9,407 nucleotides of DNA from an uncultured Clostridia bacterium. GTDB lineage: Bacteria; Bacillota_A; Clostridia; Oscillospirales; Oscillospiraceae. Positions 6,871 through 9,407 of this stretch are shown here, one piece after another; position 1 is the first letter of the stretch; each line of letters opens with the position of its first letter. A program made the position numbers and the translations under genes. The DNA is taken from assembly GCA_949289625.1 (NCBI GenBank), contig CASEPH010000297.1, forward strand, positions 1-9,407, written 5' to 3'. The notes under the pieces were generated by a model that saw only the letters and a list, made by a program, of their open reading frames with translations, ran no database searches and was not told the origin of the DNA.

Positions 6871-6873
6871 AAA

Positions 6874-6917
6874 CGAAGCGGCGGAAAACAGGCCGCTGCC
6901 CGCTTGCCGCCGCTTCG
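6874..6917 (-). terminator. Rho-independent terminator after the SASP gene remnant
   Basis: A perfect 11-bp GC-rich stem CGAAGCGGCGG (6874-6884) pairs with CCGCCGCTTCG (6907-6917), with a 22-nt loop. On the minus strand it is followed directly by TTTTTTACATATTTTTTAC. It lies 14 nt beyond the SASP stop codon. Its U-tract overlaps the Pho repeats of phoP, so the terminator and the regulator site share bases. Confidence 0.85.
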
Positions 6918-6931
6918 TATGCAGAATGAAT

Positions 6932-7054
6932 TTACTTCATGCCGCGCTCGTAGGCCTCGATCATCTTTTTGACCATCTGACCGCCCACGCTGCCGGCCTC
7001 ACGAGAGGTCAGGTTACCGTTATAACCCTGCTTCAGGTTGACGCCAACCTCCCT
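6932..7054 (-). pseudogene. 3' half of an alpha/beta-type small acid-soluble spore protein gene
   Basis: The reading frame ending with TAA at 6932-6934 encodes EVGVNLKQGYNG, then NLTSREAGSVGGQMVKK and MIEAYERGMK. This is the highly conserved C-terminal half of alpha/beta-type SASPs, the DNA-coating proteins of dormant spores. The family is usually about 60-70 residues with an N-terminal half of the A-E-A-L-x-x-F-K-x-E-x-A type, and that half is absent. Upstream of the Glu-Val codons the frame becomes unrelated (GGGTPR) and meets a stop at 7073-7075. There is no start codon in the frame before the conserved part. Homology stops about 75 nt from the end of the serine recombinase gene, so the gene was split by that element. 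If the element can excise, this is an interrupted gene rather than a dead one. The remnant still has its terminator. Confidence 0.88.
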
Positions 7055-7126
7055 TGGTGTTCCTCCACCATATTAAAGGTGATATTTTTGTGCAAGCCAT
7101 ACAGATTCATGTTAAAATTCGCATCA
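7049..7126. other. Left end of the recombinase element and proposed attachment junction
   Basis: The SASP homology ends at about 7049-7054, and the recombinase stop codon is at 7127-7129. The intervening 75 bp is non-coding and somewhat AT-rich, with a small inverted repeat (TGGTG at 7056-7060, CACCA at 7066-7070). Serine recombinase genes commonly lie right beside one attachment site, so the crossover is expected within or next to this stretch. The exact core dinucleotide cannot be fixed from one end. Confidence 0.5.
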
Positions 7127-8821
7127 TTATGCCGAAGAATTTTCCTGGTTCGAGATGGAGACGTCAAGGGGGAAGTCCCGAGTCGGCTCCGATTCCAGTT
7201 CTCCAATAAACCGATAGAAGATTCGGATGCTCTGCCGATAGGGCTGGTTTCGATGGGTGGTGGCCACTGTACCCTCCGGAAGGAGCTTAGGACCTATTTC
7301 AATCCGCTCCACAAACGTGACCAGTGTATTCCGGTCCAGCACATCGATATGGGTGAACTGTTTTGCCAGGGCGAAGAAGTGCCGGTAACGCGACTCCTTT
7401 TCCAGCCCTGGATTTTCTATATCCAGTTCAGCAATGCTTTTGGTGAGTCCTGTTGCCTCCCGTTCCAGCTCAGAAACCATCCTGGCCAGTCGGTCATCAT
7501 CCAGCTTTCCTTCGGCATTATCGGTGTACAGCTTGCCGATGATCCGGTCGATGGTGACAAGCCTTGTTTCCGCCTTTTCTCGCTTCATCTGCATGGCTCG
7601 AAGGTGTTCCGGCTGGGACTCCTGTTCCACCACGCGGTTGACCAGTTCAGATATTTCCTCGTCCGTCATGGACAGCAGGCTGTTGAGGTCCTGCCGCACC
7701 ACCTCCAGCAGATCGGAATATCGGATTCGCACGCCTTCGCACGGGTTTACGATATCCTTGCGCTGATGGGTACAGGAGAGAAACCAGTATTTTTCCCGCT
7801 GGCCCTTATAGACGGTACCGCAGGAGCACAGGGAATAACCGCATTTACTACAGACCGCGATCCCGGAAAAGATGCTTTTTCGAACATGGTCGTAGGCACG
7901 GTAATTGCTTGCACCTCTGCCTATGTTGAAGGCAGCTAGGTTGAAGGTATCCTGGCTAACCAAAGGTTCGTGGGTGTTTTCGGTAACGGCCCAATCCTCC
8001 TTGGGGATCTTCACTTTTTTCTTGGACTTGACGCTGACCTTTTTACTCTTTCCCAGTATGGTGTGACCCAGGTAGACCGGGTTTTTCAGGATCCGCTTCA
8101 CAGTCGTGTAGTTCCAGAGATCCGAAGCCCGGGCGGCTCCCGCCTCGCTAAATTCGTCTCGGAATAAGACACGGTATTTCAGCGGCGGTATAATCCCATC
8201 GTTATTCAGATCCATCGCTATTTTTCTGGAAGAATCTCCAGCCACCGCCCTGGAAAAGATGCGCTGTACAACAGGGGCTGTTTCTTCATCGGGAACCAGA
8301 TGGTTCTTGTCTCCCTTTTCCTTTTTGTAGCCGTAGGGAGGACAAGCGCAGTATTTTCCCTGGGCCCGCTTATGCTTCAAAACGTCTTTTACCTTCCGGG
8401 AACCGTCCCGCAGATATACTTCGTTCATCGCAAATTGAAAGGGCGCCATGATATTATCTTGTTCCGTATCGAAGTTGTCCGAGATGGTGAAATAGTGGAT
8501 GCCGTTTTCAGGAAAGTATTCTTCTGCGTAATAGCTGGATTCCCGCATCGTTCGGCCCAGACGAGACAGGTCTTTTGTGATAACAGTATTTGCCTTGCCC
8601 TTCTTCAGTTCCGTCAGCATCTCCTGAAAGGCCGGCCGGTCAAAGTTGCCCCCTGACCATCCGTCGTCCACAAAGGTACGAAGCAGGACATAACCATGCT
8701 GTTTACAATAGTCCTGAATGATCGAACGCTGATTGGCAATACTGGAGGATTCTCCGGCCAAAGCGTCCTCGTCGGACAGGCGAAGATATGCGTATACCAG
8801 TGTTTTCTTGTCGGTTATCAT
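7127..8821 (-). CDS. Large serine recombinase (TnpX/TndX-like site-specific integrase)
   Basis: This 564-aa recombinase cuts and rejoins DNA through a serine-DNA intermediate at short attachment sites. The N-terminal resolvase domain (about 8-150) has the nucleophile Ser16 in AYLRLSDEDA, and TKDLSRLGRT at 82-91 supplies the conserved arginines. The 'recombinase' domain follows (about 155-300) with PPYGYKK and WNYTTVKRILKNPVYLGH. A zinc ribbon has candidate ligands C324 and C327 (CSKC) and C350 and C361, with extra cysteines at 332 and 334. A coiled-coil region lies at about 405-465. Length and order fit TnpX-type transposases of Clostridia, and all catalytic features look intact. The ATG overlaps the stop of the upstream 63-aa gene (ATGA), with AGGAGG 4 nt before the start. 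It lies beside a split SASP gene, so it is probably the enzyme responsible for the insertion and perhaps for excision. Confidence 0.93.
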   Translation of the reverse strand: MITDKKTLVYAYLRLSDEDALAGESSSIANQRSIIQDYCKQHGYVLLRTFVDDGWSGGNFDRPAFQEMLTELKKGKANTVITKDLSRLGRTMRESSYYAEEYFPENGIHYFTISDNFDTEQDNIMAPFQFAMNEVYLRDGSRKVKDVLKHKRAQGKYCACPPYGYKKEKGDKNHLVPDEETAPVVQRIFSRAVAGDSSRKIAMDLNNDGIIPPLKYRVLFRDEFSEAGAARASDLWNYTTVKRILKNPVYLGHTILGKSKKVSVKSKKKVKIPKEDWAVTENTHEPLVSQDTFNLAAFNIGRGASNYRAYDHVRKSIFSGIAVCSKCGYSLCSCGTVYKGQREKYWFLSCTHQRKDIVNPCEGVRIRYSDLLEVVRQDLNSLLSMTDEEISELVNRVVEQESQPEHLRAMQMKREKAETRLVTIDRIIGKLYTDNAEGKLDDDRLARMVSELEREATGLTKSIAELDIENPGLEKESRYRHFFALAKQFTHIDVLDRNTLVTFVERIEIGPKLLPEGTVATTHRNQPYRQSIRIFYRFIGELESEPTRDFPLDVSISNQENSSA

Positions 8822-9009
8822 GTTACCTCCTTCTCGATAACCGATCCACTACTGGCATTATACCCTATGGTTTGCGTCACAGTCAACGGCACCATTTGAC
8901 AATTCTTGTTTTTTGCCAAACAGGCTCCAATAACCTCCACCTTGGACTGACTTCCTGTAAAAACGCGGTGAATTTCGTAGGTTGCCTGATTTAGTTTTAT
9001 GGTATTCAT
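8818..9009 (-). CDS. 63-aa protein coupled to the serine recombinase (possible TnpW-like or directionality factor)
   Basis: The small soluble-looking protein starts MNTIKLNQATYEIHRVFTGS and ends with GYNASSGSVIEKEVT. The N-terminal pattern (short strand, 'ATYEIHRVFTGSQS', then a helix) recalls small proteins annotated as TnpW family in Clostridial transposons, but I am not certain of this. The ATG at 9009 has GGGAG 8 nt upstream; an in-frame TTG at 9039 is a poorer choice. Its stop codon overlaps the recombinase start in ATGA, and the recombinase ribosome binding site lies inside it, so the two are translated together. That makes an accessory role in recombination plausible, such as a recombination directionality factor, but this is inference. 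Upstream is an AT-rich stretch (9036-9062) with no clear promoter match. Confidence 0.72.
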   Translation of the reverse strand: MNTIKLNQATYEIHRVFTGSQSKVEVIGACLAKNKNCQMVPLTVTQTIGYNASSGSVIEKEVT

Positions 9010-9089: not shown

Positions 9090-9407
9090 CTACAGTTCCA
9101 GGAAATACTGGGCCGACTTTTTTCTGAGATAGAACTCAGTCACCTCACCCAGATCCGAGGTCACAGGGATTTCCGGCAGTGCCTCCATCAACGCCTTGTG
9201 GTACCGTTGACCGGGAATACAGCGTTCGTCCAGCACGGCCACTACGCAGGTGTCGGTCTCCGTACGGATGGCCCGGCCAAAGCCCTGGCGAAGTTTGATC
9301 TGCATCTCCGGAACAATAACAGCTTGAATAAAATCATGAAGAGAGCCGTACCGTTCCTTCTGCTTTTCCTTCAGTTCGTCGGGAAACGCAAAGGGCAGCT
9401 TGGGAAT
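9090..9407 (-). CDS. DinG/XPD-like ATP-dependent helicase, C-terminal part (runs off right edge)
   Basis: The last 105 codons of a superfamily-2 helicase of the DinG/XPD type are present; the gene begins outside the window. Visible are the segment LPFAFPDELKEKQKERYGS (4-22) and the helical region FIQAVIVPEMQIKLRQ. Helicase motif VI appears as QGFGRAIRTETD (41-52), with the Gln and the two Arg residues that contact ATP, followed by VAVLDERC and RYHKALMEALPEIPVT. These match the HELICc2 C-terminal domain. Such enzymes unwind DNA or DNA-RNA hybrids in repair. The stop TAG lies 80 nt upstream of the 63-aa gene. Whether this is a chromosomal gene or part of the recombinase element cannot be decided here. 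Confidence 0.9.
   Translation of the reverse strand: MPKLPFAFPDELKEKQKERYGSLHDFIQAVIVPEMQIKLRQGFGRAIRTETDTCVVAVLDERCIPGQRYHKALMEALPEIPVTSDLGEVTEFYLRKKSAQYFLEL

Follow-up and report, generated by a model that had tools for sequence, protein, structure and literature searches.

TndX/TnpX-like serine recombinases beside split alpha/beta-type SASP genes in Oscillospiraceae and related bacteria

Sporulation genes split by an element whose recombinase lies beside the junction are known from skin (sigK), SPbeta (spsM), vfbin (spoVFB), vrin (spoVR), gin (gerE) and yin (yabG), and these elements rejoin their genes exactly and in frame. The accessible sections of two papers on such intervening elements name sigK, spsM, spoVFB, gerE and yabG as targets and do not contain the word SASP (PMC10747680; PMC5595907). 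The accessible part of a third source adds spoVR and states that SPbeta acts only in the mother cell, which avoids altering the inherited chromosome (PMC4191935).

The clostridial elements Tn5397 (TndX) and Tn4451 (TnpX) resemble the locus described here in another way, having a large serine recombinase with a DUF4368 domain and a GA core. A large survey, as far as its text is accessible, describes DUF4368 as the mark of a serine recombinase clade that includes TndX-like enzymes and is multi-targeting, and neither 'spore' nor 'SASP' appears in that part of its main text (PMC10083194). TndX itself reportedly favours sites in Fic-domain DNA in C. difficile; in B. subtilis it asks for little more than a GA (PMC4430133, in part). 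According to the available portion of a review, the Tn4451-family enzyme needs no directionality factor, and excision by TndX/TnpX enzymes reportedly requires no helper (PMC5704250; also a title cited in PMC4430133). The ICEs and IMEs of Firmicutes that use serine recombinases offer a third comparison, with an attB inside a gene, a conserved recombinase and variable content. The same portion of the review presents such IMEs as disrupting genes dispensable for the host (PMC5704250), whereas the target in our case is usually the only SASP gene. A full-text literature search that covered few subscription papers and no supplements returned no SASP-interrupting element in the titles and abstract openings listed. 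A SASP gene recurrently split by an element therefore appears, as far as this search shows, to be undescribed.

The window analysed here is a stretch of 9,407 nucleotides from an uncultured Clostridia bacterium (contig CASEPH010000297.1). The original prediction had placed in it the C-terminal half of an alpha/beta-type SASP gene with its stop codon and terminator, an abrupt end of homology at about 7049-7054 and a complete large serine recombinase gene some 75 bp from the break, and all of this was borne out (Table 1). The minus-strand translation of positions 6920-7129 reads ...GGTPREVGVNLKQGYNGNLTSREAGSVGGQMVKKMIEAYERGMK followed by a stop. The half gene matches positions 21-59 of the 59 in PF00269 (Pfam, E 7.7e-19), has its stop codon at 6932-6934 and is followed by the inverted repeat at 6873-6918. 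Homology to SASP ceases at the core dinucleotide, inside the predicted range, and the gap between half gene and recombinase measures 75 bp. The reading frame of the half gene meets a stop upstream, with no start codon between that stop and the SASP part, and no SASP N-half was seen within the window. Pfam finds the Resolvase, Recombinase, Zn-ribbon and DUF4368 domains in the recombinase, to which genes annotated tndX are about 33% identical. We consider it very likely that a site-specific, probably conjugative or mobilizable element occupies what is usually the only SASP gene, that its attL lies in the window, and that conservative excision would rebuild the gene in frame.

Table 1. Features of the window at the split SASP gene and the adjoining recombinase.
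Feature	Position	Strand	Remark
Inverted repeat with 21-nt arms, then a T-rich stretch; probable SASP terminator	6873..6918	-	
3' half of alpha/beta-type SASP gene (GVNLKQGYNGNLTSREAGSVGGQMVKKMIEAYERGMK + stop)	6932..7051	-	spans crossover to stop codon
Crossover dinucleotide GA, inside the Glu codon of EVGV	7050..7051	-	placed via paired halves of relatives
Element-side attL arm (ttaatatggtggaggaacaccaagg); resembles attP left arm of relatives	7052..7076	-	
Large serine recombinase, 564 aa, TndX/TnpX-like with DUF4368, complete	7127..8821	-	
Small ORF, 63 aa (MNTIKLNQATYEIHRVF...); no Pfam match	8818..9009	-	
Sigma-A-type promoter TTGACT-18-TATAAT ahead of recombinase; relatives with similar sites	8857..8886	-	predicted
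3' part of gene with Helicase_C_2 domain, element side	9090..9407	-	

Beyond the SASP half, the window encodes a response regulator and histidine kinase, a Na/Pi cotransporter with PhoU domains, an extracellular solute-binding protein and a further gene that we take to be the start of rpoB. On the element side, the helicase-domain gene at 9090-9407, presumably of the DinG type, may be cargo or a host gene. A host-like gene also adjoins the recombinase in the relative G030 (a NUDIX gene), and the elements of G030 and the window may be small or rearranged. The window holds no tRNA that could provide an attachment site. Many related recombinases have a similar-looking short ORF directly upstream; Pfam gave no match for that of the window and one sub-threshold match to TnpW (E 0.13) for that of a relative.

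A TTGAC-17/18-TATAAT-type promoter with at least 10 of 12 matches precedes the recombinase in 22 of 24 sequences, a count made without a shuffle control on the relatives; it was missed in G001 and G236. This sigma-A-type promoter suggests that the recombinase is likely expressed in vegetative cells. A separate, sporulation-controlled excision factor may exist besides it. Between promoter and start codon, 14 of the 24 sequences carry the motif GGGTCGGTT or close variants, a possible candidate for an operator or recombinase-binding site. The window is outside those 14 and reads ggatcggtt in the motif's place (8822-8856).

The same junction recurs in relatives. A search of genome contigs returned one locus, in the rumen Oscillospiraceae MAG RGIG8009, where a recombinase 68% identical to that of the window is directly followed after its stop by a SASP C-half cut at the same codon. 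This same-codon cut beside the recombinase is found in the window, in L001 and in others. At least 19 of 400 family genomes and at least 11 further order genomes (n = 394) carry a relative of the recombinase (E 1e-100 or better in the family), both counts being minima because no more than three candidates were scored per genome. The recombinase is followed by a C-half in 10 of the 19 family carriers and, on the opposite strand, by an N-half in four (G381, G370, G302 and G236). The element end in G087 and G368 is joined to other, non-SASP DNA with an intact SASP elsewhere (L012, L028), probably through off-target insertion. Only a remnant near an intact SASP persists in G015, and G285 and G392 have recombinases 37-38% identical, an intact SASP and a junction that our script did not locate, and were dropped before counting. 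Ten of the order carriers have a C-half after the recombinase and G517 does not; the match in G699 was reported with one internal stop.

A tree of 30 recombinases, built without the incomplete ones of G015 and G274, has 28 in-group members, 25 of which abut a SASP half. The exceptions (G368, G087 and G517) show that the specificity for SASP is not absolute. Element orientation changed several times on this tree. In-place inversion was considered for the reversed elements and set aside, as the strand on which the attP core lies would set the orientation (according to the title of a Bxb1 paper). Because the same cut beside a recombinase of the same kind recurs in so many other genomes, the junction in the window is not due to chance. 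Metagenome proteins also contain it: among the best 120 matches to the junction peptide of the window, a script classed 40 as starting with element-derived TPREV-type residues, 51 as intact and 29 as neither, a split that is no frequency as the query favours junctions. Three metagenome SASP proteins (P0121, P0122 and P0123) have a tandemly duplicated C-half, perhaps from repeated integration or assembly error. G370 has an extra C-half at G370:C1:1360889-1360999 (L056), 28 kb further on from the copy at 1332947 and with the same residues, which lacks the usual attL arm and is perhaps an older or tandem insertion.

If the gene was split by integration, its N-half should persist elsewhere in the same genome, as the original prediction had proposed. 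Such orphan N-halves are present in 12 of 17 relatives that have only a split SASP gene, 11 of which also have the C-half with a matching core. The paired genomes are G030, G208, G250, G283, G302, G370, G381, G186, G031, G035 and G245, where halves were located by PF00269 searches and by reading the loci, the N-half of G302 scoring below the Pfam cut-off. A C-half alone was found in G072, G274, G378, G385 and G318, and an N-half alone in G236. The halves share their core dinucleotide in 11/11 pairs (GA in ten, CA in G250) and join in frame in every one. All ten joined products tested in Pfam match PF00269; seven reach its end, and three match only to position 49-52 because of a foreign 3' tail.

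GA is also the core of 26 of the 28 attL sites (the window plus 27 genomes), and CA that of the other two. The two CA elements are sisters on the recombinase tree (98/82), the pattern to be expected from an attP that tracks the host codon GAG/CAG, with the host N-half found in G250 only. The element-side arms form an inverted repeat around the core in all 11 pairs. None of 1000 shuffles reached the score of this repeat in ten pairs, and 14 of 1000 did in G186. Furthermore, the SASP joined from two separate contigs of G283 is identical over 64/64 residues to the intact protein P0241, found on 160 contigs under the source name Candidatus Avoscillospira sp. LCP25S3_F1 (Oscillospiraceae). By its sequence, P0241 represents the empty site that the insertion model predicts, and we infer that the G283-type insertion is polymorphic in or near one species. 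The orphan N-halves, matching cores and in-frame joins in relatives thus strongly support the first reading of the original prediction, in which a mobile element uses a SASP gene as its integration site, and site-specific insertion into SASP is well supported. By comparison with these relatives, the window would hold attL, one end of an integrated element, with the far end and N-half lying beyond it.

SASP is usually single-copy in the family sample. A SASP match was found in 307 of the 400 genomes, with exactly one match in 269 of the 307 by our reading of the table, and 93 genomes have none. No match spans both halves (best E worse than 1e-20) in 20 of the 307, comprising 13 of the 19 carriers and 7 of the 288 others (Fisher 7e-14, genomes taken as independent). 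Four of these seven non-carriers show the split at the same core; the remainder (G093 and G269, with a half cut by the contig end, and G273, with a different match) gave no information and were dropped before counting. In three of the split four (G031, G245 and G318), the stretch preceding the junction resembles, by eye, the last part of a recombinase locus truncated where the contig stops. Only a split SASP gene is present in 17 of the 307. G001 has one split and one intact SASP together with gpr matches on three contigs, possibly because of contamination. These copy counts cover the family genomes; junctions were read in ten order-level carriers.

The elements themselves vary in content. The element of G370, with both halves on one 1.5-Mb contig, spans 31.4 kb and encodes a T4SS coupling protein and a TraG P-loop protein. 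It is conjugative like Tn5397 and Tn4451, and as in those elements no phage genes were noticed. The 11.9-kb element of G302, also with both halves on one contig, has neither conjugation nor phage genes by eye. ParB-domain proteins lie at the far ends in G250 and G381. Upstream of the recombinase in G378 (L071:302-5601, L071:10353-11273) we also identified a ResIII-domain restriction subunit, a DNA methylase and a tyrosine recombinase; integrase-like ORFs occur by eye in the same place in G208 and, as a fragment, in G283. Scans of viral contigs (single-protein, attL-pattern and alignment) found no relative, and the eight recombinase records in the phage collection and 16 in the plasmid collection are all below 60% identity. 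The best record in the phage collection, L145 (MT836041.1, a 13.6-kb 'Bacteriophage sp.' scaffold), encodes a recombinase of the group and a reverse transcriptase and also contains a SASP N-half. It is probably not a phage, and a phage origin of the element draws no support from it.

We read these elements as ICE/IME-type. The 25 of 28 recombinases at SASP, the paired halves and the element content together indicate that an ICE/IME family uses the SASP gene as its main attB, in contrast to the many targets of TndX and the DUF4368-rich clade. The proposed mechanism is that a TndX/TnpX-like group largely dedicated to codon 26-28 of the alpha/beta SASP gene, of which these Oscillospiraceae and their relatives usually have just one, would integrate by recombination at the GA dinucleotide within the Glu codon of EVGV. 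The 3' half would then flank one end of the element, and the 5' half with its promoter would flank the opposite end. Since the recombination is conservative, excision would restore an exact, in-frame SASP gene. With expression from its housekeeping-type promoter, the recombinase could excise the element unaided, and carriers would be SASP-off and excised cells SASP-on.

The halves show little sign of decay. In all 28 C-halves the reading frame runs through from core to GGQMV motif, free of stops and frameshifts, and 20 conserved sites changed at 6/560 positions in split genes and at 6/520 in 26 other genes. Measured against the nearest of these 26, the ratio of nonsynonymous to synonymous codon differences is 43:144 in split and 25:109 in intact genes (p 0.41), a test of low power that cannot tell recent insertion from function. 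The original prediction had considered that the half gene might be decayed debris; the open frames and the lack of a clear excess of amino-acid changes are at odds with this. gpr, the SASP protease gene, is kept by every split genome but G385 (16 of 17), compared with 18 of 20 SASP-bearing controls picked by hand in list order and 8 of 20 taken from the 93 SASP-less genomes, a set whose count may be lowered by low completeness. Open C-halves and a kept gpr fit recent or reversible SASP loss alike.

Upstream of the SASP genes we scanned for GCATA-N17-CAAACTA, which we take to be a sigma-G-like forespore promoter. With this motif fitted by eye, best scores were 8-12 of 12 in 12 split genes and 7-12 in 24 others, and 5/12 and 4/24, respectively, scored at least 11. 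Many lower scores were matched by shuffles, which makes the scan descriptive.

The 3' end of SASP has a second junction, where the last eight or so codons after GGQMVKK/N are replaced by a tail like xPVRTxxFxRxxRTAxGHxxxxxYxxxxxx-stop (loci L107-L126 except L110 and L114, and L011, L031, L039, L052, L084 and L134). The tail occurs in 18 of 20 genomes with an intact N-part chosen for low SASP scores, and in G274 its peptide is also found at a non-SASP site, so the SASP 3' end is possibly used by a second mobile-element family. Six of the 28 C-halves carry the tail (G030, G208, G274, G302, G245 and G682), where excision would not give a normal SASP.

That chimeric assembly or binning joined recombinase ends to SASP fragments is extremely improbable. 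The relatives are assemblies of unstated completeness, several of them clearly fragmented, with several contigs ending inside the recombinase or soon after a half, yet the same junction appears in 28 sequences and in metagenome proteins, and G302 and G370 hold both halves on one contig. A developmentally programmed element like skin in sigK, whose excision is triggered by sporulation and serves SASP production, was the other reading of the original prediction and was not borne out. It would account for a sporulation gene as target, usually the only SASP, and for conserved, in-frame halves and a retained gpr; the small ORF beside the recombinase could be its directionality factor. Alpha/beta SASPs, however, act in the forespore. 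Excision in the mother cell therefore cannot supply SASP to the spore, and excision in the forespore would alter the chromosome that is inherited. In the known cases, in the accessible part of the source, the rearranged genes are those of the mother cell and the event is confined to that cell, which later dies (PMC4191935). Here, by contrast, the split gene encodes a forespore DNA-binding protein, 22 of 24 sequences have a sigma-A-like recombinase promoter and no prophage genes were noticed in the element stretches read. The conjugative element of G370 and the identical uninterrupted allele P0241 also argue against programming, which we regard as decidedly unlikely; skin-like mother-cell excision is not supported.

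The insertion, though not its reversibility, is shared by an explanation in which integration is a dead end: SASP is inactivated, its loss is tolerated, and the halves are intact since the insertions are recent. Such a dead end is consistent with the 93 SASP-less genomes, the foreign tail on 6/28 C-halves and an uninterrupted allele of one split gene that is common in the protein database. Against it stand the 28 open C-halves, codon differences in which split and intact genes are not separated at the low power of the test, the retention of gpr and the helper-free excision described for TndX/TnpX enzymes in the sources cited above. We hold a dead end to be possible rather than probable. Our preferred reading, a mobile element that excision would remove cleanly, could extend to a reversible switch of a spore gene in the germline, which we propose only tentatively. 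Driven by its housekeeping-type promoter, the recombinase alone would keep the population mixed, SASP being off in cells with the integrated element and on in those that have excised it. The forespore, where SASP is needed, holds the chromosome that is inherited, so proper spores could come only from excised cells, and the element would either be lost at sporulation or travel with the spore as a circle and reintegrate when it germinates. If this switch operates, element and host sporulation would be in direct conflict, unlike skin, whose rearranged genome dies with the mother cell.

An element family in a SASP gene departs from the pattern in which sporulation-gene rearrangements affect mother-cell genes. 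It also offers codon-specific integrases with putative attP/attB pairs inside a clade described as multi-targeting. In C. difficile, deletion of both main SASPs is reported to prevent spore formation (PMC8452069, in part), so the effect on a host with a single SASP could be large. An element family that repeatedly enters the usually single SASP gene would tie horizontal gene transfer to the quality of spores or to sporulation itself. SASPs protect spore DNA, and spores are a main route by which strict anaerobes of the gut pass between hosts. SASP-splitting elements could help explain variable spore resistance or failed sporulation among Oscillospiraceae.
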